In this document: positions 1,233 to 55,040 of the stretch, in pieces
Numbering within the stretch: the first letter of the stretch is position 1
How the letters are laid out: the number at the start of each line of letters is the position of its first letter
From: Spirochaetaceae bacterium
Lineage (GTDB): Bacteria; Spirochaetota; Spirochaetia; Treponematales; Rectinemataceae
DNA length: 64,000 nt
Assembly (NCBI GenBank): GCA_025356015.1
Contig: JANXYO010000007.1
Span: 1-64,000, forward strand
Direction of reading: 5' to 3'
The notes under the pieces: generated by a model
Told to the model about the DNA's origin: nothing
The model's input: the letters and a program-made list of their open reading frames with translations, nothing else
The model's database searches: none
Translations under genes and position numbers: made by a program

Positions 1233-2883
1233 GGCCCTCGACCTCGCCGACTGACTCGGTGACGCTCCTGACCCCGTCCCTGATCTCGCTCGAGGCCTCG
1301 CTGACCGCGACCGCGCCCGAGGCGACGAGCTCCATCTCCCGGGCGACCTCGGCCGAGGAGGAGGCGAGCTCGTCCATGAGCAGGCCGAGCTCGTCCATCC
1401 TGTCCCTCGCACTCCTCGTCCTCTCCTCGATGGACTGGAAGGCCCCTCCCGTGAGCTTGCCCGCGCTTTGGATCCCGCCGATCCTCGTGGCGATGTCCTG
1501 GATCGTGGAGCCGATGAGGACAGAGTTCTCATTGGTCGACTCGGCAAGCTTGCGGATCTCGTCGGCCACCACGGAGAAGCCCCGTCCCGCCTCTCCGGCG
1601 TGGCCGGCCTCGATGGCAGCGTTCATCGCGAGCAGGTTGGTCTGTTCGGCCACGCCATTGATGATCGCGGTCACGTCGAGTATGCGGTCGACATCCTCGG
1701 CCATCCCGGCTATGAGGGCGTCCGTCTCGTGGAAGCGGTCGAACTCGGTCGCCGAGAGCTCGGCGAGGCTTTGGGCGTCTTCCCTCTGGCGGGCGGCGAT
1801 CTGGGCCGCCTGGGCCACGGCCTGCCCGATCGCTCCCGCCCGACCGCTGGAACCGCGGAGGATGCCGGTCTGCCTGGCGATCCTCTCGTCGAGGGAACCG
1901 ACATTGGCGCCGATGGCCGAGGCGGCAAAGGCCGTGCTGGTGAGCCTCTGGGCCATGTGGCCCACCCTGGTACGGATCGAGCTGATGTTGCCGCCGATCT
2001 GCTCCATGGCCGCCGTGGTCTCGGTGAAGGCGGCGAGGAGCTCCTGCCTGACCGAGCCGCCGGTCTGGGCGGCCTCGGCGACGCCGTCGATGAGGCTCGC
2101 GAAGGCGGCAATGGTGGCGTTGAGCTTGGAGGCGAGCTGGGCGAACTCATCCCTGCCTCCCACCTGGCAGCTGGCGACGTAGTCCCGGGCGTTCCAGGCC
2201 TCGATGGCCGAGCCGAAACCAGCGAAGCTCCGGCGGAAACGCGAGAGGAAGCTGACGATGAAGAGGAAGGAGGAGAGGCCGGCGGCTCCGGTGACTGCCA
2301 GTCCCCATATGGCGAAGATCCGGGTCAGGGACGCCGTCCTAGCCTGGATTGTGGCACTGATCTTCTCGATCGAGCGCTCGAGGGATGTGTCGAGGGTGGT
2401 GACGAGGTAGGAGATTGACCTGATCAGCGACGAGGCCCTTGCGTCGCCGCCCGAGCTCTGCGCGTACATCATCGGATACTGGGGGTCGGTGGCGGCGATC
2501 TTGGCCGCGACACCCGAGGTCTTCGCAGCCATGCTCGAGGCCAGCTCCCACATGCCGGCGAGGGAGTCGAGGGCCTGATGTTCCTCCGCGCTCCGCATGA
2601 GGGATGAGAGCCCCGGGGTGGCGGCGAAGGCGGGAAGGGCGGCGCCCAGCTTGGCCTCGCACTGGGTCCAGGTATCGTAGGTCCGGGCGAAGCTGCCCGA
2701 GGTGATCAGCTCGTTGCTGAGGTACCTGAAGCGGAAGAGCTCGGCCCTGAGGTCGGTGGCCGACTGGCGGTATCCGTAGAGCCGCGAAAAGACGGCCTCG
2801 AAGAGGATCAGGCTGCCGGCGCTGGTCGCGAGGGCCAGCATGGACACGACGAGGATGGTCAGAAGCCTGGATTTGATGTTCAT
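1117..2883 (-). CDS. Methyl-accepting chemotaxis protein
   Basis: A 588-residue chemoreceptor. There is an N-terminal membrane anchor (residues about 5-28), a periplasmic sensor of roughly 170 residues, a second membrane segment (about 205-230), a HAMP-like linker, and a long coiled-coil cytoplasmic domain. The hairpin tip that contacts CheA/CheW is recognisable near residues 405-445 ([15 protein letters not shown] then [19 protein letters not shown]); it reads [11 protein letters not shown] where [11 protein letters not shown] is usual. The ATG at 2883 follows AGAGGA. No che gene is nearby, so this is an orphan receptor with unknown ligand. The last 38 residues are low-complexity, rich in R, S and P, and antisense to the transporter gene, so the natural C-terminus may have been lost or replaced. 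Confidence 0.9.
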
Positions 2884-2914
2884 GGTTCCTCTTGAGTGGA
2901 TGAAATGATGAGGA

Positions 2915-2943
2915 ACTGTAAGACGACTTGTCAAAATTGCCAA
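2915..2943 (-). promoter_or_regulatory. Putative sigma-70 promoter of the chemoreceptor gene
   Basis: Read on the minus strand: TTGGCA, 17 nt, TACAGT, followed by about 30 nt of leader containing the AGAGGA ribosome site. Confidence 0.4.
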
Positions 2944-3023
2944 ATGCCCGAAAGCGGGTCTTTGCGTCTTCTGCTCGGGCCCGGCCTCTTGAATGCGGCC
3001 CCGGCTCCACAGGGGGGCGATCC

Positions 3024-3052
3024 TTGCTCCGCGTTTCCGTCCATGCTACTAT
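3024..3052 (+). promoter_or_regulatory. Putative sigma-70 promoter of the PfkB kinase gene
   Basis: TTGCTC, 17 nt, TACTAT; the ATG at 3081 follows AGGAGG about 28 nt downstream of the -10. Confidence 0.5.
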
Positions 3053-3080
3053 GAGCTGTCCGATCCACCGAGGAGGGCCC

Positions 3081-4043
3081 ATGGAAATCGTCGGCATCGG
3101 CAACGCGCTCGTGGATGTCGTCGCCTACGTCGACGAGGAGTTCGCTCCCTCCCTCGGCTATCACAACAACGCCATTGTCCACCTCGAGCGTGAGCGTCTG
3201 GACGAGGTCCTCGCCCTAATCCCCGAGGCGGGACGCTCGGCCGGCGGGGGAGCGGCGAACACCGTGAGGGCCGTCGCCTTCCTGGGGGAGGGGGCCGCGT
3301 TCGCCGGCTGCGTCGGGGAGGACGATCTCGGCCGGCTCTATCTCGCCGACCTGCGCGCAGCCGCTGTGGAGAGCCTCATCAGGACCTCTCCGGCGCCCAC
3401 GGGGGTCTACTGCGCCTTGATAAGGCCCGACGGCGGCCGGACCCTCCTTGTCGCCCCGAGCGCAGCCCTCGACATAGCCCTCGAGGCCCCCGACCCGCGC
3501 GTCTTCAGGAAGGGGGCCACCCTCTACCTGGAAGGCTTCCTTCTCGGGAACAACAGGGGCTTTTTCATGGACTGCCTGCGCGCGGCACGGGAAGCCTCTA
3601 TGGAGATCGCCCTCGACCTCTGCAGCCAGGGCCTCGTCCACGCCCAGCGCGGGTTCATCCTGGAGCTGCTTCCCGACTTCTGCGACCTCTTGTTCGCAAA
3701 CGAGGACGAGTTCCTGGCCCTCGTGGAGCTCCCCCTCGCCGAGGGCTGCTCCCTCCTGAGCGATCTCGACCTCACCCTGGTGGTGAAGCGCGCCGAGCGC
3801 GGAGCGGTCTGGGCGAGGGGAGGGCGGGTGATCGACAGCCCCGTGCGGGCCGTCGATCCAGTCGACCAGACGGGCGCCGGCGACGCCTTTGCCGCGGGTT
3901 TCCTCGTCGGCCGCTCACGGGGGCTTGCGCCTGAACGCTGTCTGCGTCTTGGCAACAGGCTCGCCGAGGAGGTCCTGGCGGTACCGGGCTTCGGCGTCGA
4001 CCCGGAACGCCTCAGGGACGCGGCAGAAGGGGTTAGCGCCTAG
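3081..4043 (+). CDS. PfkB-family carbohydrate/nucleoside kinase
   Basis: A 320-residue ribokinase-fold ATP-dependent kinase. The N-terminal IVGIGNALVDVVAYV strand, the GGGAANTVRAVAFLG phosphate/sugar-binding stretch and the C-terminal DQTGAGDAFAAGF anion hole with the catalytic Asp are all present, so it should be active. The order of motifs is closest to adenosine kinase or sugar kinase members of the family, but the substrate cannot be fixed from sequence. The ATG at 3081 is preceded by AGGAGG at 3071-3076 and by a good promoter; the frame is open further upstream but without a better start. It stands alone between the chemoreceptor gene and lon. Confidence 0.87.
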   Translation: MEIVGIGNALVDVVAYVDEEFAPSLGYHNNAIVHLERERLDEVLALIPEAGRSAGGGAANTVRAVAFLGEGAAFAGCVGEDDLGRLYLADLRAAAVESLIRTSPAPTGVYCALIRPDGGRTLLVAPSAALDIALEAPDPRVFRKGATLYLEGFLLGNNRGFFMDCLRAAREASMEIALDLCSQGLVHAQRGFILELLPDFCDLLFANEDEFLALVELPLAEGCSLLSDLDLTLVVKRAERGAVWARGGRVIDSPVRAVDPVDQTGAGDAFAAGFLVGRSRGLAPERCLRLGNRLAEEVLAVPGFGVDPERLRDAAEGVSA

Positions 4044-4245
4044 GGCAAAAAGCTTTCTTCGTGGGCAATCCTTCCCGAAAGGCAATCGCGAAGGGCGAAA
4101 CGGCAGGCAAAACCTTGCCAAACTGGGCCAAAAATCGTAGTTTTATAACCGCACACCAATCCGTCGGCCACATGCTCCAGAATCGCGCCTTCTAGCGTCT
4201 CTGGAAGTTTCTGTCGGCCGGTCCACCACAGGGAGGAACTAAGCC

Positions 4246-6594
4246 ATGCCCGAAAACGAGATAATCCCCATCGACCAGCTCCTTCCAAACAAGCTCCCGA
4301 TAATCCCCCTCATGGGCCGCCCTATCTTCCCGGGCATCTTCACGCCGATCATGATCGGCAACCCCGAGGACGTGAAAGTCATAGAGGAGGCGATCTCGGC
4401 CGACGGGATGGTCGGCCTCATCATGATCAAGAACGAGTTCGACAAGCCCAAGGCCGAGGACCTCCACGCCGTCGGGACAGCCGCCAAGATCGTGAAACGG
4501 ATCAACCTCCCCGACGGGGGGGCCAACATCTTCATCTCCACCTTGAAGCGCTTCAAGGTCAAGAAATTCCTCTCCAAGGAGACCCCGATCGTCGCGGCGA
4601 TCACCTACCTGGACGAGGAAGGCGACGACACCGACGAGATCAAGGCCCTGACCCGGGCCCTCCTTGGCGAGATGAAGCAGATCTCGGAGAACAACCCCCT
4701 GTTCTCCGAGGAGATGCGGCTCAACATGATCAACATCGACCATCCGGGCAAGATCGCCGACTTCATCGCGAGCATCCTCAACATCGACAAGAACGACCAG
4801 CAGAAGATCCTCGAGTGCACGAACGTGCGGGAGCGGATGGAGCGGGTCCTCATCTTCATCAAGAAGGAGCAGGAGCTCCTCAAGATCCAGAAGCGGGTCC
4901 AGCAGGAGATCAACGACAAGATCGAGAAAAGCCAGAGGGAGTATTTTCTCAAGGAGGAGCTCAAGGCGATAAAGAACGAGCTTGGCATGCCCACCGACGC
5001 CAAGGGCTCGGACTACCAGCGCTTCAAGGATAAGATCGAGGGTTTCGGCTTCCAGGGCGAGATAAAGGAGCAGGTCGAGCAGGAGCTCGAGAAGTTCAAC
5101 CTCATGGACCCGAACTCTTCCGAGTTCATCGTCACCCGGAACTGGCTCGACCTCATCTGCTCCCTGCCCTGGAAGGCAGCCGTCTCCGGCGACTTCGACC
5201 TGGGCAAGGCCCAGGACATCCTCGAGGGCGACCACTACGGGCTCAAGGACGTGAAGGACAGGATCGTCGAGTATCTAGCCGTCCGCAAGCTCAAGAAGGA
5301 CGCCAAGGGCTCCATCGTCTGCCTCGTCGGTCCCCCCGGAGTTGGCAAGACGAGCGTCGGCAGGTCGATAGCAAGGGCCCTGGGAAAGGAGTTCTTCCGC
5401 TTCTCGGTGGGTGGGATGCGCGACGAGGCCGAGATCAAGGGCCACAGGCGCACCTATGTCGGAGCCCTGCCCGGCAAGATCGTCCAGGGCCTCAAGATCA
5501 CCAAGAGCCGCGATCCTGTCTTCATGATCGACGAGATCGACAAGATGGGGGTCTCCTACCAGGGCGACCCCTCGAGCGCCCTCCTCGAGGCCCTCGACCC
5601 CGAGCAGAACTACAGCTTCCGGGACCACTACCTCGACCTGCCCTTCGATGTGTCCAACGTCTTCTTCATCTGCACGGCCAACACCCTGGACACGATACCC
5701 GCCCCCCTCATCGACAGGATGGAGGTCATACAGCTCCCGGGCTACGTCGACTCCGAGAAGCTCGAGATCGCCAAGCACTACCTGATCCCCAAGAGCCTCG
5801 AGAAGAACGGGATCAGGAAGACCATGGTGCGCTACACTCGCGACGCCCTGCTCCTGATCGCCGAGTCCTACGCCCGCGAGGCCGGGGTGCGGAACTTCGA
5901 GAAGGCCCTCAACAAGATCCACCGCAAGCTCGCGAAGGCGATCGTCCTCGAGGGAAAGGACGGCGAACGCTTCTCGATCGACAAGCCCGCGGTGCTGAAG
6001 CACCTCGGCAAGCCGATGTTCAGGGACGACGACATAAAGCGGGCGACCAGGCCCGGCATGAGCGTGGGCCTCGCGTGGACGAGCATGGGCGGCGACACCC
6101 TGATCATCGAGGCTGTGGAGAACCCCGGCAAGGAAGGCTTCAAGCTCACGGGTCAGATGGGCTCTGTCATGCAGGAGTCGGCAGGCATTGCCTACACCTT
6201 CGTCAGACACGCGGCCGCTGAGATGTACGACATCGGGGCCGACTATTTCGAGGGCAGGCAGATCCACCTGCACATACCCGAGGGCGCGACGCCCAAGGAC
6301 GGCCCTTCGGCGGGCATCACCATGGCGACGGCCCTGCTCTCCCTCGTCACGGGGCGGAAGATCAAGGACCGCCTCGCCATGACGGGCGAGCTCTCCCTCA
6401 CGGGCCAGGTACTGCCCATTGGCGGCCTGCGCGAGAAGACCGTGGCGGCGAAGCGCAACAAGATACGCGACATCATCATACCCGCGGGCAACGAGAAGGA
6501 CCTCGACGACATCCCCGACCACGTCAAGAAGGGGATAAGCTTCCACCCGGTGGAGCGGATGGAGGACGTGATAGCTTTCGCCTTCCCCGAATGA
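4246..6594 (+). CDS. lon: Lon ATP-dependent protease
   Basis: A 782-residue cytoplasmic AAA+ serine protease that degrades misfolded and short-lived regulatory proteins; the length matches bacterial LonA (about 780). Order: N-terminal substrate domain (1-200, beginning at LPIIPLMGRPIFPGIF), coiled-coil (about 200-270), AAA+ module with Walker A GPPGVGKT at 362-369 and Walker B FMIDEIDKMG near 426, and the C-terminal protease with catalytic Ser688 in KDGPSAGITM and Lys731 in GGLREKTVAAKR. GGAGG precedes the ATG. The 200-nt upstream gap is AT-richer than its surroundings and holds TTGCCA at 4115-4120, but no heat-shock (CIRCE) element was seen. Confidence 0.97.
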   Translation: MPENEIIPIDQLLPNKLPIIPLMGRPIFPGIFTPIMIGNPEDVKVIEEAISADGMVGLIMIKNEFDKPKAEDLHAVGTAAKIVKRINLPDGGANIFISTLKRFKVKKFLSKETPIVAAITYLDEEGDDTDEIKALTRALLGEMKQISENNPLFSEEMRLNMINIDHPGKIADFIASILNIDKNDQQKILECTNVRERMERVLIFIKKEQELLKIQKRVQQEINDKIEKSQREYFLKEELKAIKNELGMPTDAKGSDYQRFKDKIEGFGFQGEIKEQVEQELEKFNLMDPNSSEFIVTRNWLDLICSLPWKAAVSGDFDLGKAQDILEGDHYGLKDVKDRIVEYLAVRKLKKDAKGSIVCLVGPPGVGKTSVGRSIARALGKEFFRFSVGGMRDEAEIKGHRRTYVGALPGKIVQGLKITKSRDPVFMIDEIDKMGVSYQGDPSSALLEALDPEQNYSFRDHYLDLPFDVSNVFFICTANTLDTIPAPLIDRMEVIQLPGYVDSEKLEIAKHYLIPKSLEKNGIRKTMVRYTRDALLLIAESYAREAGVRNFEKALNKIHRKLAKAIVLEGKDGERFSIDKPAVLKHLGKPMFRDDDIKRATRPGMSVGLAWTSMGGDTLIIEAVENPGKEGFKLTGQMGSVMQESAGIAYTFVRHAAAEMYDIGADYFEGRQIHLHIPEGATPKDGPSAGITMATALLSLVTGRKIKDRLAMTGELSLTGQVLPIGGLREKTVAAKRNKIRDIIIPAGNEKDLDDIPDHVKKGISFHPVERMEDVIAFAFPE

Positions 6595-39372: not shown

Positions 39373-39855
39373 ATGCGCTGTCCCCACTGCGGATCCCTCG
39401 ACGACAAGGTCATAGACTCCCGCTCCCTCGCCAACGGCGAGAGCATAAGGCGCCGGCGCGAATGCCTCTCCTGCGGGCTGCGCTTCACGAGCTACGAGAG
39501 GATCGAGGAAAAGCCCCTCATGGTCGTCAAGCGCGACGGGCGGCGCGAGCCCTTCGAGCGCACCAAGCTCGAGCGGGGCGTCATCCGCGCCCTCGAGAAA
39601 CGGCCGGTCTCCCAGCTCAGCATCGAGAACCTCGTCAACGAGATCGAGGATGAGTCAGCCCTCAAGGGCAAGGCGGCCGACGAGATCCCGAGCGTCGAGC
39701 TCGGCGAGATGGTCCTGCGGCACCTGTATGCCCTGGACAAGGTGGCCTATGTCCGCTTCGCCTCGGTGTACCGCAAGTTCGAGACGATGGACGAGTTCAT
39801 CAGCGAGATAGAAAGGCTCGAGCGGAGCTCCGCCGGGTCCGAGGGAGGTCCCTAG
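39373..39855 (+). CDS. nrdR: Transcriptional repressor NrdR
   Basis: A 160-residue repressor of ribonucleotide reductase genes. The N-terminal zinc ribbon (MRCPHCGSLDDKVIDSR ... ECLSCGLRFTSYE, four Cys) binds DNA, and the ATP-cone (about 46-136, VVKRDGRREPFERTKLERGV) senses ATP/dATP. The length and motif order match NrdR throughout. It begins the operon, is followed directly by nrdD (1-nt gap), and has paired NrdR-box-like sites in its own promoter. The C-terminal tail after residue 145 is a little longer than in E. coli. Confidence 0.95.
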   Translation: MRCPHCGSLDDKVIDSRSLANGESIRRRRECLSCGLRFTSYERIEEKPLMVVKRDGRREPFERTKLERGVIRALEKRPVSQLSIENLVNEIEDESALKGKAADEIPSVELGEMVLRHLYALDKVAYVRFASVYRKFETMDEFISEIERLERSSAGSEGGP

Positions 39856-39856
39856 G

Positions 39857-42082
39857 ATGGCTCCGCAGCAATTTTTCCCCGAGTGGAAGACCTTTCTGGG
39901 CGAGGAGGACTCGGGCGCTGCCCCGGTCAGGCAGGTGGCCAAGCGTTCCGGGGAGGTCCAGCGCTATGACCGCAAGAAGATAGCCACCGCCGTCTCCAGG
40001 GCCTTCGCGGCCGCCCTCGAGGCCTCCGGGGGCACCGAAAGCGGCCAGGGCGGCGCGGGGATGGCCGAGCGGGTCGACCGCGTCGTCGCCCTCGTCGAGC
40101 AGAGGCTCTCCGCCCTCATGGCCTCCCGGCACCCGAACTCGATACCCGCGATCGAGGAGATCCAGGACCTCGTCGAGACGGCCCTGGTCGAGGCGGCCGA
40201 GGCGAGGACGGCCAAGGCCTACATCCTCTACCGCGCGCGCCACGAGGCCCTCCGCGACGCCTCGAAGCTCATGCTAGACATAAACTCGACCATGGACGGC
40301 TATCTCTCCCAGGCCGACTGGCGGGTCAAGGAGAACGCCAACGTCAACTACTCCCTGGGGGGCCTCATCCTCCACAACTCGGGGACGATCACAGCCAACT
40401 ACTGGCTGCGCAACATCTATCCCGAGGATATAGCCCGCGCCCACCGCGAGGCCGACTTCCACATCCACGACCTCTCGATGTTCTCGGGCTACTGCGCGGG
40501 CTGGTCACTGCGCCAGCTCATCGCCGAGGGCCTTGGCGGAGTGCCGGACAAGATCAGCTCCCGGCCGGCCAAGCGCCTGTCGACCCTCGTCCAGCAGATG
40601 GTCAACTTCCTGGGCGTCCTCCAGAACGAGTGGGCCGGAGCCCAGGCCCTCTCCTCCTTCGACACCTACCTCGCCCCCTTCGTGAAGAAGGACTCCCTGG
40701 GCGACACCGAGCTCAGACAGTGCATCCAGAGCTTCCTTTTCGGGGTGAACACGCCGAGCCGCTGGGGAAGCCAGGCTCCCTTCACGAACGTCACCCTCGA
40801 CTGGACCTGCCCGGCCGACCTCCGCGCCCGGCAGGCTGTCGCGGGTGGCTCGGAGCTGCCCTTCACCTACGGCGACTGCCAGGCCGAGATGGACAGACTA
40901 AACCGGATCTTCATCGAGCTCATGCTCGAGGGCGACGCCGAGGGCAGGGGCTTCCAGTACCCCATACCCACCTACAACATCACCCGCGACTTCGACTGGG
41001 ATTCGCCCAACGCGCGGCTTCTCTTCGAGATGACGGCCAAGTACGGCACGCCCTACTTCCAGAATTTCGTGAGCTCAGACCTCGACCCCGGCGACGTGCG
41101 CTCCATGTGCTGCCGCCTCCAGCTCGACAAGCGCGAGCTGCGAAAACGCGGCGGCGGCCTCTTCGGCTCGGACGAGCTCACGGGCTCGGTGGGGGTCGTC
41201 TCCCTCAACATGCCCAGGATCGGCTACCTCGCGAAGGGCAGCAGCGGTAAGAACACCCGCGCCGACTTCTTCGCAAGGCTCGACGCCCTGTGCGACCTCG
41301 CCGCGAAGTCCCTGGCCATCAAGCGCAAGGTCATCACACGCCTCCTCGAGGGCGGGCTCTTCCCCTACACGAGGCGCTACCTGGGGAACTTCGACAACCA
41401 CTTCAGCACGATAGGCCTCGTGGGCATGCACGAGTGCTGCCAGAATTTCCTCGGCCGCGGCATCGAGACCGAGGAGGGGAGGGCCTTCGCCCTCGAGGTC
41501 CTCTCCCACATGAGGCAGAGGCTAAAGGAGTACCAGGTGAAGACCGGGGTCCTTTTCAACCTCGAGGCCACCCCCGCCGAGTCCACGAGCTACCGCCTCG
41601 CCAAGCATGACAAGGAGCAGTGGCCCGACATCATCTGCTCAGGCGCCCCGGGCGGCAGCGGCGAGGACGGTTCAGCGGCCGAGCGTCAAGGCACGAGCTC
41701 GGCGGCCGAGCGTCAAGGCACGAGCTCGGCGAGGCCTTTCTATACCAACTCGAGCCAGCTCCCCGTCGACCTCACCGAGGACCTTTTCGACGCCCTCGAC
41801 CAGCAGGAGGAGCTCCAGGCCTCCTACACCGGCGGCACGGTCTTCCACGTCTTCCTCGGTGAGGCGCCGGAAGACTGGAGGGCTGTGCGCGACCTCGTGC
41901 GCACCATAGCCGCGAACTACCGCGTGCCCTACTACACGATCTCCCCGACCTTCTCCATCTGCCCCGTCCACGGCTATCTCTCGGGCGAGCACTTCTCCTG
42001 CCCGCGCTGCAAGGCCGAGCAGGAGGCCCGGCTCCGCGGCGAGATAGAGAGCCTCGAGCGCGAGCTGGCGGCCGCGAGGTGA
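39857..42082 (+). CDS. nrdD: Class III ribonucleotide reductase catalytic subunit lacking the glycyl-radical domain
   Basis: A 741-residue anaerobic NTP reductase large subunit. An ATP-cone lies at about 28-135; the barrel carries NTPSRWGSQAPFTNVTLDW, RSMCCRLQLDKRELRKRGGG, LTGSVGVVSLNMPRIGYLA and STIGLVGMHECCQNFLG, typical of the redoxin-dependent NrdD2 branch. The C-terminal zinc site is present (CPVH ... CPRC), but the protein then ends in a helix (EARLRGEIESLERELAAAR). The glycyl-radical segment that should follow is absent and is encoded by the next gene. A 9-residue in-frame tandem repeat (AAERQGTSS twice, 41675-41728) interrupts a loop near residue 610. GGAGGT precedes the ATG. Confidence 0.93.
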   Translation: MAPQQFFPEWKTFLGEEDSGAAPVRQVAKRSGEVQRYDRKKIATAVSRAFAAALEASGGTESGQGGAGMAERVDRVVALVEQRLSALMASRHPNSIPAIEEIQDLVETALVEAAEARTAKAYILYRARHEALRDASKLMLDINSTMDGYLSQADWRVKENANVNYSLGGLILHNSGTITANYWLRNIYPEDIARAHREADFHIHDLSMFSGYCAGWSLRQLIAEGLGGVPDKISSRPAKRLSTLVQQMVNFLGVLQNEWAGAQALSSFDTYLAPFVKKDSLGDTELRQCIQSFLFGVNTPSRWGSQAPFTNVTLDWTCPADLRARQAVAGGSELPFTYGDCQAEMDRLNRIFIELMLEGDAEGRGFQYPIPTYNITRDFDWDSPNARLLFEMTAKYGTPYFQNFVSSDLDPGDVRSMCCRLQLDKRELRKRGGGLFGSDELTGSVGVVSLNMPRIGYLAKGSSGKNTRADFFARLDALCDLAAKSLAIKRKVITRLLEGGLFPYTRRYLGNFDNHFSTIGLVGMHECCQNFLGRGIETEEGRAFALEVLSHMRQRLKEYQVKTGVLFNLEATPAESTSYRLAKHDKEQWPDIICSGAPGGSGEDGSAAERQGTSSAAERQGTSSARPFYTNSSQLPVDLTEDLFDALDQQEELQASYTGGTVFHVFLGEAPEDWRAVRDLVRTIAANYRVPYYTISPTFSICPVHGYLSGEHFSCPRCKAEQEARLRGEIESLERELAAAR
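41675..41728 (+). repeat. 27-bp tandem duplication inside nrdD
   Basis: Two perfect 27-bp copies (41675-41701, 41702-41728), each encoding AAERQGTSS in frame, in a surface loop just before the PFYTNSSQLP segment. Confidence 0.9.
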
Positions 42083-42090
42083 AGAAAATC

Positions 42091-42119
42091 GAAAGGCACA
42101 CCACGGAGCCACGGAGTCT
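42091..42119. repeat. Dispersed 29-bp repeat, copy 1
   Basis: A 29-bp stretch containing CCACGGAG, between nrdD and the glycyl-radical gene. A second copy (26 of 29 identical) lies at 55012-55040 in an ABC operon, also between two co-oriented genes. Confidence 0.75.
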
Positions 42120-42148
42120 GGCCACGAAGATCACGGAGGGGAATAGAT

Positions 42149-42667
42149 ATGTCTGACCGCAAAAGCATCGAGGCGAGGATAGAGGGTCTCAGGGCCGAGC
42201 TCGCCCAGGTCGAGGGGACGAGCACCGAGGTCTACTCGCGCATCGTCGGCTACTACCGCTCGGTGCGCAACTGGAACGCTGGCAAACGCGAGGAGTACCG
42301 GCTTCGCAAGACCTACGACCTGGCCTCCTGCGCGGGTCATGGGGATGGCCGGAGCGAGGACATCAAGGCAGGCGGGGCGCAGAGCGCCGAAGCGGCCGGG
42401 GAGCTCATGGCCGAGGAGGTCCTCGTGTTCACGCGCGAGACCTGCCCCAACTGTCCCCCTGTGGCGAACTATGTCATGGGCCAGGGCATCGGAGCCATCC
42501 TCGTCGATGTCGACTGCGCCGCGGGCCTCGAGCTGGCGCGCCGCCATGGTGTGCTCTCCACGCCGACTGTCCTTGGCCTCGACTCGCGCGGCAATGAGGC
42601 CTTCAGGGCCTTTGCCCTGGGCGAACTCAAGGCCCGCTTCGGGGACGGCCGGATGGCGAGGGCCTAG
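42149..42667 (+). CDS. Free-standing glycyl-radical domain fused to a redoxin domain
   Basis: A 172-residue protein. Residues 6-22 form a helix (SIEARIEGLRAELAQVE) that resembles the C-terminal helix of the upstream NrdD. Residues 27-56 (EVYSRIVGYYRSVRNWNAGK then REEYRLRKTY) are the class III reductase glycyl-radical motif, with Gly34 as radical site. Residues 91-165 are a glutaredoxin/NrdH-like domain with CPNC at 99-102 and STPTVLGL (cis-Pro). It should complement the radical-less NrdD in trans, be activated by NrdG, and perhaps deliver reducing equivalents. GGAGGGG precedes the ATG, 66 nt after nrdD. The upstream stop and own ribosome site argue against a frameshift. Confidence 0.88.
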   Translation: MSDRKSIEARIEGLRAELAQVEGTSTEVYSRIVGYYRSVRNWNAGKREEYRLRKTYDLASCAGHGDGRSEDIKAGGAQSAEAAGELMAEEVLVFTRETCPNCPPVANYVMGQGIGAILVDVDCAAGLELARRHGVLSTPTVLGLDSRGNEAFRAFALGELKARFGDGRMARA

Positions 42668-42686
42668 GGCGCGGGGCGCAAAGAGG

Positions 42687-43385
42687 ATGCTCAGCCGTCT
42701 CGCCTTCCGCAAGACGAGCCTCATCGACTTCCCGGGCAGAGTCGCCGCGGTTGCTTTCCTGAGCGGCTGCAACTTCCGCTGCCCCTACTGCCACAACGCC
42801 GCCCTCGTGGACCCGCTGCGGGTCAATGCCGAGAAGCTGCCGAGCCTTGGCGAGTTCATGGCCTTTCTCGACGCCCGCAAGGGCCTGATCTCGGGCCTGG
42901 TCATCTCGGGCGGGGAGCCCCTCATCCACGAGGAGGCGCCGAGGCTGGCCAAGGCGGCGCGCGACCGGGGCCTCGCCGTGAAGCTCGACACAAACGGATC
43001 CCTGCCCGACCGGATCCTCGCCCTGGGTCCCGATTACATCGCCCTCGATCTCAAGACGGCCATAGGCGCCTATGCCCGGGTGGCTCCCGGAATGCCAGGG
43101 GCAGGGGAGGCCGTCCTCGAGTCCCTCCGGGTGGTGAGGGCCTCGGGGATAGAGTACGAGCTGCGGGTGACCTGCGCCCCGGGCATCGTCGGCGCGTCGG
43201 AGATCAAGGCCTTGTGCGAGCTCCTCGAGGCCGGCGACCGAGTCGTGCTCCAGGACTTCCGTCCGGGTGGCTGCCTCGACCCGGCCTGGGATTCGGCCAC
43301 GCCATATCCCGATGCCGTCATGGACGGCTTCCTCTCGGCCCTGCGCAAGAGGGCCCCGCTCGCGAGGAGGAGGGGCCAGCCGTGA
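42687..43385 (+). CDS. nrdG: Anaerobic ribonucleotide reductase activating protein
   Basis: A 232-residue radical SAM activase of the NrdG2/PFL-activase-like type. The cluster motif is CNFRCPYC (Cys-x3-Cys-x2-Cys, about residues 28-35), then LVISGGEPL and KLDTNGSLPD. It reduces SAM to make the glycyl radical on the class III reductase. Here its target Gly34 lies on the separate protein encoded just upstream. The ATG at 42687 lies directly behind AAGAGG, so spacing is poor; the frame upstream is a shadow. A 17-bp tandem duplication (43372-43405) begins in the last codons and runs past the stop. Confidence 0.92.
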   Translation: MLSRLAFRKTSLIDFPGRVAAVAFLSGCNFRCPYCHNAALVDPLRVNAEKLPSLGEFMAFLDARKGLISGLVISGGEPLIHEEAPRLAKAARDRGLAVKLDTNGSLPDRILALGPDYIALDLKTAIGAYARVAPGMPGAGEAVLESLRVVRASGIEYELRVTCAPGIVGASEIKALCELLEAGDRVVLQDFRPGGCLDPAWDSATPYPDAVMDGFLSALRKRAPLARRRGQP

Positions 43386-55011: not shown

Positions 55012-55040
55012 GAAACGCACGCCACGGAGGCACGGAGTCT
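55012..55040. repeat. Dispersed 29-bp repeat, copy 2
   Basis: A second copy of the repeat at 42091-42119 (26 of 29 bases). It occupies the gap between the binding protein and the first permease gene. Confidence 0.75.

Follow-up and report, generated by a model that had tools for sequence, protein, structure and literature searches.

In the genome of a Spirochaetaceae bacterium (Spirochaetota, family Rectinemataceae), neighbouring genes very probably encode a two-subunit class III ribonucleotide reductase (RNR), in which a radical subunit would act in trans to a truncated NrdD. They lie in the window, that is, the whole stretch of 64,000 nucleotides analysed here (assembly GCA_025356015.1, contig JANXYO010000007.1, positions 1 to 64,000, forward strand). 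In reviews, as far as available, class III RNR is an alpha2 enzyme whose glycyl radical belongs to NrdD itself, and one states that it requires no second subunit (PMC3267527). The reading of a trans radical domain is supported by conservation, by the varied frames, stops and gaps between the two genes in relatives, by unlinked genes and by genomes in which the pair is the sole RNR detected, and more weakly by tethered structural models.

The split locus

Reading of open reading frames (ORFs) and profiles in the window gives four consecutive genes on the + strand, namely nrdR, nrdD, a gene of 172 codons and nrdG, with the following features.

39373..39855, + strand: nrdR, RNR transcriptional repressor, directly 5' of nrdD (TIGR00244, E 2.4e-56)
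39857..42082, + strand: nrdD body, 741 residues, with ATP-cone, barrel, finger loop MCCR and zinc site, and no glycyl-radical segment
41105..41116, + strand: MCCR of the finger loop (residues 417-420), which SCCR of Thermotoga maritima NrdD matches in the alignment
41960..42010, + strand: putative zinc site CPVH...CPRC (C702, H705, C715, C718), read from sequence, metal binding being suggested by known NrdDs
42002..42079, + strand: NrdD C-terminal tail, residues 716-741, modelled as a helix by AlphaFold2 and absent from one-piece relatives with a 4-residue linker
42083..42148, no strand: gap of 66 nt after TGA, with Shine-Dalgarno GGAGGGG at 42135-42141
42149..42667, + strand: candidate trans glycyl-radical subunit with redoxin fusion, 172 residues, ATG at 42149
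42149..42211, + strand: residues 1-21 of the radical subunit, an N-terminal helix with a proposed role in docking (AlphaFold2 helix 765-785)
42227..42316, + strand: TEVYSRIVGYYRSVRNWNAGKREEYRLRKT, the glycyl-radical segment (NRDD 532-562), with T26 as its first residue at 42224
42248-42250, + strand: codon of radical Gly34, a glycine invariant among aligned relatives
42410..42643, + strand: glutaredoxin/thioredoxin-like domain, CPNC codons 42443-42454, Pro139
42687..43385, + strand: nrdG, radical-SAM (S-adenosylmethionine) activase of NrdG2 type, 232 residues, ATG at 42687 (TIGR02495, E 1.3e-43, 148.7 bits against a cut-off of 131.15)

An earlier note, made from the letters of the window, had described an NrdD that possesses cone, barrel and zinc site and stops before the radical segment, and profile searches bear this out. 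The window NrdD matches positions 1-532 of the 562 in Pfam NRDD (PF13597; E 4.5e-170), carries an ATP-cone at residues 26-130, scores above the cut-offs of TIGR02487 and NF006126, and ends 23 residues after its last zinc-site cysteine. A catalytic body, a finger-loop cysteine motif and a dedicated radical-SAM activase, NrdG, are thus all present as in other class III RNRs; what this chain does not have is the glycyl loop at its C-terminus, for NRDD 532-562 is found in the next gene, at residues 25-56 of the 172-residue protein (E 1.2e-7, above the gathering score). The radical Gly34 and CPNC redoxin that the note had placed in this second gene are likewise confirmed, Gly34, the CxxC cysteines (C99, C102) and Pro139 being invariant in 22 of 22 aligned proteins, and a re-reading of the window returned the same coordinates, stop, 66-nt gap and ribosome site. 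The redoxin part gives weak, sub-threshold Pfam matches to Thioredoxin_2 and Glutaredoxin from residue 91 and weak matches in the PDB; two relatives (L125 and L195) exceed the Pfam Glutaredoxin cut-off, and strands and helices alternate in the corresponding region (854-928) of the AlphaFold2 model described below. A CxxC, a putative cis-proline and a predicted thioredoxin fold together mark the domain as glutaredoxin/thioredoxin-like. Pfam found NRDD and redoxin families in the window's radical protein and NRDD alone in three others; the glycine radical family of pyruvate formate-lyase (PFL), to which YfiD/GrcA belongs, was not found in the window's protein.

Two further sequence features were seen at the locus. 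The gap between nrdD and the radical gene contains, at 42099-42116, CACCACGGAGCCACGGAG, of which a copy with two mismatches lies at 55020-55037, a match equalled in 2 of 100 shuffles; and within nrdD, at 41681-41730, there is an exact 27-bp tandem duplication (ERQGTSSA repeat) that falls in a low-confidence loop of the model.

Two subunits would divide the work as follows. NrdD would contribute the barrel, the finger-loop cysteines, the allosteric cone and the zinc site, and the small protein the glycyl-radical loop. In the models the latter binds the tail at the C-terminus of NrdD, through paired helices in the window's clade, and the loop would enter the barrel with Gly34 beside the finger loop. 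NrdG would install the radical on Gly34 in trans, the attached redoxin may reduce the active-site disulfide after turnover, and the exchange of an oxygen-cleaved radical piece may be the benefit of the arrangement.

One chain or two

The earlier note had also held that the pair is not a simple frameshift, a claim that stands for the relatives and falls short for the window alone: there the second gene shares the frame of nrdD and all 22 gap codons are open after a single TGA, so that read-through of this codon was compatible with what the window by itself contains. The relatives were assessed in 97 distinct linked loci with both genes nearby, where gap lengths depend on the script's choice of start. 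The second gene lies in frame 0, 1 or 2 relative to nrdD in 32, 39 and 26 loci, respectively; nrdD ends in TAA in 51, TGA in 31 and TAG in 15; and the gaps run from -46 to 249 nt, with just 18 loci in frame and lacking a further stop. Of the 97 second genes, 76 are preceded by GGAG, GAGG or AGGA, a frequency to be set against 15% for randomly chosen positions within these loci. Read-through or frameshifting as a general explanation is ruled out by these frames, stops and gaps. The thought that one or the other joins both frames in the cell, and that the enzyme is really one chain, would suit the window and the 18 loci that are likewise in frame and open, but it does not suit the other 79, nor the Shine-Dalgarno-like sequences at 76 second genes, nor the radical genes that lie at least 95 kb from nrdD in seven genomes and on a different contig in an eighth; it is highly improbable.

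In these seven genomes (G031, G034, G158, G197, G204, G275 and G287), the distant radical gene is adjacent to nrdG. G031 and G034, single-contig genomes of 2.8 Mb from one genus, have nrdD at 1.45 and 1.35 Mb and a radical protein of 95-98 residues without redoxin at 0.92 and 1.45 Mb, adjoining nrdG, and the same unlinked arrangement recurs in G158, G197 and G204 of that genus. In G275 and G287, a radical-redoxin gene accompanied by nrdG lies 308 kb and 2.2 Mb from nrdD (0.47 Mb if the contig is circular). The eighth genome, G328, belongs to the Aenigmatarchaeota (L101).

Genomes that probably rely on the pair

The genome from which the window comes (4.17 Mb in 150 contigs, 99.4% complete, 3.6% contamination) contains, by genome-wide profile search, a single NrdD body and a single matching radical segment. 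A second full-length nrdD, which the earlier note had asked to be looked for, was not found in this genome-wide search, and neither was any one-piece NRDD. Both profiles were then applied to 107 genomes, picked as matches of earlier searches. A split body with a separate radical segment occurs in 98 of them, a radical segment alone in one (G178), a one-piece NrdD with redoxin in seven and a distant one-piece NrdD in one (G010). No class I/II large subunit was detected in 48 of the 107, and 16 of the 98 split genomes hold a second, one-piece NrdD beside the pair. With those 16 set aside, 32 of the 107 genomes show no RNR large subunit besides the split pair, and 21 of these are at least 95% complete; some of the 32 may nevertheless possess another RNR that is missing from a draft assembly. 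A target enzyme that keeps its own glycyl loop, as in the YfiD/GrcA system, was found neither in the window genome nor in 29 genomes behind free-radical loci (see below). The pair is probably used by cells. As an aside, the one-piece NrdDs that accompany the pair in G053 and G055, two of the 16 genomes with such a second enzyme, are about 30% identical to the window's NrdD.

Comparison of coding sequences indicates purifying selection on both NrdD and the radical protein. The ratio of non-synonymous to synonymous substitution rates (omega) was 0.036-0.444 for radical proteins in those 10 of the 13 computed pairs that had finite synonymous divergence, and it exceeded that of NrdD in seven of the eight pairs in which both were finite. 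Of the 121 distinct split proteins from cells, 120 were scored by script as having the radical glycine, and in the last (L152, VVGW) it was recognized by eye; all 63 viral radical proteins have it too. This count is favoured by the search itself, since the glycine was part of one of its two patterns. A pseudogene reading is rejected on the strength of the pair-only genomes and the purifying selection. Another RNR might do the work, with the pair surviving as a decayed or inactive leftover; this could be argued from the class I/II-type large subunit present in the window genome and in 59 of the 107 genomes overall (itself included), as well as from the 16 genomes with a second, one-piece NrdD; yet 32 genomes have no other detected large subunit, both parts are under purifying selection and the radical glycine and CxxC are retained, which leaves this idea scarcely credible.

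Distribution

A survey of the kind that the earlier note had proposed, of genomes for NrdDs without the C-terminus and for small radical proteins, revealed the split across bacteria and archaea. Within the window's order it is found widely, though not everywhere, and it is present elsewhere in the Spirochaetota; in relatives, too, NRDD breaks near position 532. Among the best 30 loci from 58 relatives in the order, 25 are split, three are one-piece (G023, G024 and G030) and two are cut by contig ends; the radical gene adjoins nrdD in 23 of the 25 split loci and does not in two. Across the phylum, radical profile A1 matched, in split or one-piece form, in 166 of 296 genomes, and among 20 further loci the frame with the radical motif spans 54-85 codons between stops in 19 and 162 codons in the remaining one; a script placed 14 of the 20 between nrdD and nrdG. 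Overall, a script scored the order nrdD-radical gene-nrdG in 78 of the 157 split rows, a set in which some loci are repeated and some are cut by contig ends.

Beyond the Spirochaetota, the split occurs in Thermodesulfobacteria, Chloroflexota, WOR-3, a planctomycete metagenome-assembled genome (MAG) and several archaea, often with a free radical protein of about 45-70 residues. A scan of genome contigs for named loci gave, among the best 80 matches, 42 split loci (10 with redoxin) and 38 one-piece loci (eight with redoxin). Free radical ORFs were located in Thermodesulfobacterium hveragerdense DSM 12571, T. thermophilum DSM 1276, a T. geofontis MAG and Thermodesulfatator autotrophicus, in MAGs titled Chloroflexi, WOR-3, Aegiribacteria, Fermentibacteria and Planctomycetes, and in MAGs titled Woesearchaeota, Diapherotrites, Aenigmatarchaeota and Nanoarchaeota. 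The 29 genomes behind such loci yielded no one-piece NRDD, the NrdD body being broken by contig ends in four (G340, G341, G350 and G352) and an additional 723-residue frame with a partial NRDD match being present in G355; three one-piece controls each gave one. In the phylum of T. thermophilum (247 genomes), the 65 best-scoring radical matches (E-values no higher than 3.6e-16; two maybe from one species) fall in frames of at most 171 residues in 15 cases, of 259 residues in one and of at least 612 residues in 49, so that there the split is in the minority. Because the radical ORFs often have fewer than 90 codons, annotation may miss them and NrdD may look truncated. Separately, some NrdDs (L131 at 2762-5803, L104, L108 and L121) contain inserts of about 300 residues that are intein-like by position, near the finger loop in L131 and near NRDD position 157 in Thermodesulfobacteria.

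Docking and the zinc site

In one-piece enzymes, the linker from the zinc site to the EVY motif has a median of four residues, and 18 of 19 one-piece NrdDs with a C-terminal redoxin have just this length. In split-plus-redoxin enzymes, the NrdD tail has 21-38 residues and the partner 23-31 residues before EVY. Both partners were modelled with AlphaFold2 as single chains in which the stop codon was read as Trp. The tethered model of the window pair (936 residues, alignment of 52 rows) reached a mean predicted local distance difference test (pLDDT) score of 84.1 and a predicted template modelling (pTM) score of 0.74, with helices at 716-745 and 765-785; that of the T. hveragerdense pair (L111; 756 residues, 38 rows) reached 85.7 and 0.81, with a pLDDT of 80 for the radical block. 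The latter model has a strand in the NrdD tail (669-674, VEMELP) that would pair with one in the mini radical protein (702-707, TQKVKV). Thus the paired helices through which the earlier note had the two proteins dock are reproduced, as a model, for the window's clade, and do not extend to every split enzyme if another clade uses paired strands. In L182 (G445), from T. thermophilum's phylum, the NrdD tail and radical N-terminus of a mini-split both look helical by sequence, which makes an independent helix docking possible.

The tethered models align structurally to 8p2s, 1h7b and 4u3e. The alignment to T4 NrdD (1h7b) ends at T4 residue 587, corresponding to model residue 805 in the window and 725 in L111, and since the radical glycine of the T4 enzyme is Gly580 (PMC2795772, in the portion available), this offset places it on Gly798 (Gly34 of the window protein) and Gly718, the radical glycines of the two pairs. 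The models suggest, more weakly than the genomic evidence and, for the window, with low local confidence, that the trans radical glycine occupies the place of the cis loop glycine. Alignments A3, A4 and A5, with badly placed radical fragments, were excluded from folding.

The zinc site may be shared across two chains in some splits. The fourth zinc ligand is clearly missing from NrdD in three of 42 mini-splits (L135, L151 and L155), and the radical protein there has a cysteine before EVY; three more (L144, L150 and L173) are ambiguous. The split L155 and the one-piece L098, which are sisters in the tree, read CPVE... plus MTKCGKNTEVY and CPIE...KCGKRTEVY, respectively.

History and role of the redoxin

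A quick tree with a midpoint root, built from 562 columns of 165 NrdD cores, among which some genomes are repeated, requires 13 changes between split and one-piece, and six for the redoxin; the four combined states require 18 changes, against 82.5 in shuffles, and none of 200 shuffles was as low. A 90-row clade with Shimodaira-Hasegawa-like approximate likelihood ratio (SH-aLRT) support of 100 holds 68 split-plus-redoxin rows and 17 of the 21 one-piece-plus-redoxin rows. Because the earliest lineages to branch off in it are one-piece enzymes that carry the redoxin (the nodes above these have support of 94 and 90 and are not starred), the redoxin was probably fused to a one-piece NrdD first, the chain being split later between zinc site and radical loop. 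Later re-fusions would account for G030, G023 and G024, and several independent splits may have occurred.

Regarding the finger loop, HECCQN had been considered as a loop marking a thioredoxin-only enzyme and was rejected, the loop being the MCCR aligned with SCCR of T. maritima. No association between finger-loop type and redoxin was found in the alignments, the consensus RSMCCRL occurring both with and without redoxin.

A number of observations weigh against the two-subunit reading or parts of it. On the structural side, the block of the window model that bears the radical glycine (791-800) has a mean pLDDT of 56 and the finger-loop block one of 67, the tether and the NrdD structures known to AlphaFold2 favour docking in the models, and alignment A6 has the TEVYSR residues of many rows in wrong columns. 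Within the window's family and order there are one-piece NrdDs (G023, G024 and G030, and the distant G019, G025 and G028), and no NrdD match was obtained in 17 of the 58 relatives searched. The window genome encodes one class I/II-type RNR large subunit, so that the pair may be dispensable there. Finally, the redoxin is absent from some split relatives (L035, L036 and L093) and MCCR fits formate use; the redoxin is hence not strictly needed.

This last point bears on a rival reading in which the split enzyme does work in trans, with formate as the reductant and the redoxin employed otherwise, for example in protecting or regulating the radical site. The MCCR finger loop retains the methionine linked to formate use, and a loop of this type is compatible with such use according to the available part of PMC9669993; mini radical proteins, moreover, do without a redoxin, as do some split relatives. 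On the other hand, the redoxin CxxC and Pro139 are invariant in 22 of 22 proteins, the tree puts the fusion to one-piece NrdD probably before the split, and a glutaredoxin fused to a class I radical subunit is a proven reductant (PMC6187632, in part). A formate-driven split enzyme is, on this evidence, unlikely, and the redoxin of the two-subunit enzyme may be its reductant.

Viral and mobile copies

In viral contigs, 467 stretches are related to the mini profile, and the best 80 of them (L225-L304) comprise 65 free glycyl-radical ORFs and 15 within NrdD. No NrdD frame accompanies 62 of the 65 free ORFs in the fetched stretch, and an NrdD body is absent from 46 of the 48 viral records with a free radical ORF that were searched whole, records that may be fragments. 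Among the 17 free ORFs outside this whole-record search, L234 has a neighbouring NrdD frame; L232 and L234 are nearly identical to a Thermodesulfobacterium protein, and some records classed as viral may in truth be cellular DNA. Mu-like phage genes surround L302 and L225, and L261 gave no phage match. Of the extra copies in cellular genomes, L075 has a tail protein and a methylase nearby, L077 a viral-type recombinase, L079 an ArdC-like gene and L222 TrbI; other free cellular copies lie beside ordinary genes such as thiC. As a group, L075, L077, L079, L083 and L214-L223 are free radical ORFs away from nrdD, several of them extra copies. A search of plasmids gave no match to the window's radical protein; in INPHARED two phage records matched, neither covering 80% of the mini query and one annotated as reductase; and in PHROGs one 45-residue phage radical protein had no family and another a single weak match.

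The phage-like and conjugation neighbours, together with viral records lacking an nrdD body, suggest mobile free radical domains, which by analogy with T4 Y06I and PFL may complement host NrdD. A competing reading holds that the split is neutral, the radical protein binding once and never exchanging, with no benefit in repair. The common order nrdD-radical gene-nrdG (78 of 157 split rows) and the modelled helix or strand docking speak for it, whereas the extra free copies, and the viral records in which an nrdD body is missing, point to a use for free radical proteins on their own; neutrality is less likely than not. We lean slightly towards the wider proposal that the glycyl loop is an exchangeable, mobile cofactor: in many anaerobes it would be an obligate free subunit of about 45-180 residues, in some perhaps with zinc shared across subunits, and phage, prophage or conjugative copies without nrdD would dock on host NrdD, split or oxygen-cleaved, and so sustain the supply of deoxynucleoside triphosphates.

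Relation to known systems and significance

The split pair shares with canonical NrdD/NrdG systems (T4, T. maritima, Prevotella copri) the ATP-cone, barrel, finger-loop cysteines, zinc site, glycyl loop and NrdG-type activase; the canonical loop is in cis, whereas here it is on another polypeptide. YfiD/GrcA and T4 Y06I are likewise small free glycyl-radical proteins that complete a barrel enzyme, a phage version included (PMC8683613, in part); however, YfiD/GrcA serves PFL as a spare, whereas the split radical protein serves RNR, judging by homology, and is the only radical source found in split lineages. The class I NrdB-glutaredoxin fusion of Facklamia ignava also has a radical-carrying subunit that brings its own redoxin, although that subunit holds a metal-cofactor radical rather than a glycyl radical and its redoxin is N-terminal; the same source, as far as available, reports one grx::nrdD fusion, in Lachnospiraceae bacterium TWA4 (PMC6187632). 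Class II NrdJa/NrdJb and the class I alpha of phage Aeh1 are RNR alpha chains in two pieces too, but no radical is ascribed to either second piece in the available parts of PMC9669993 and PMC3267527. Lastly, one-piece NrdDs with a C-terminal redoxin, in Clostridia and some Spirochaetota, have the same order of NrdD, glycyl loop and redoxin, but are unsplit. Split class I and II RNRs, the glutaredoxin-NrdB fusion, one grx::nrdD fusion and YfiD/Y06I are hence already known. Searches of the open-licence literature turned up neither a split class III RNR nor a spare part for RNR, and the available portions of PMC9531940, PMC9669993, PMC4493059, PMC11226230, PMC4390871, PMC3019208, PMC2795772, PMC8683613, PMC6187632 and PMC3267527 describe neither of them. 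Spare-part proteins for glycyl radical enzymes beyond PFL are raised just as a possibility in the part of PMC8683613 available.

A trans radical subunit would make class III a catalytic-plus-radical-subunit enzyme, formally like class I RNR. With its protein of about 50 residues, the split enzyme would offer a natural system in which to study radical installation, loop entry and exchange, and the free radical proteins, phage-borne ones included, provide concrete candidates for spare parts of glycyl radical enzymes beyond PFL.

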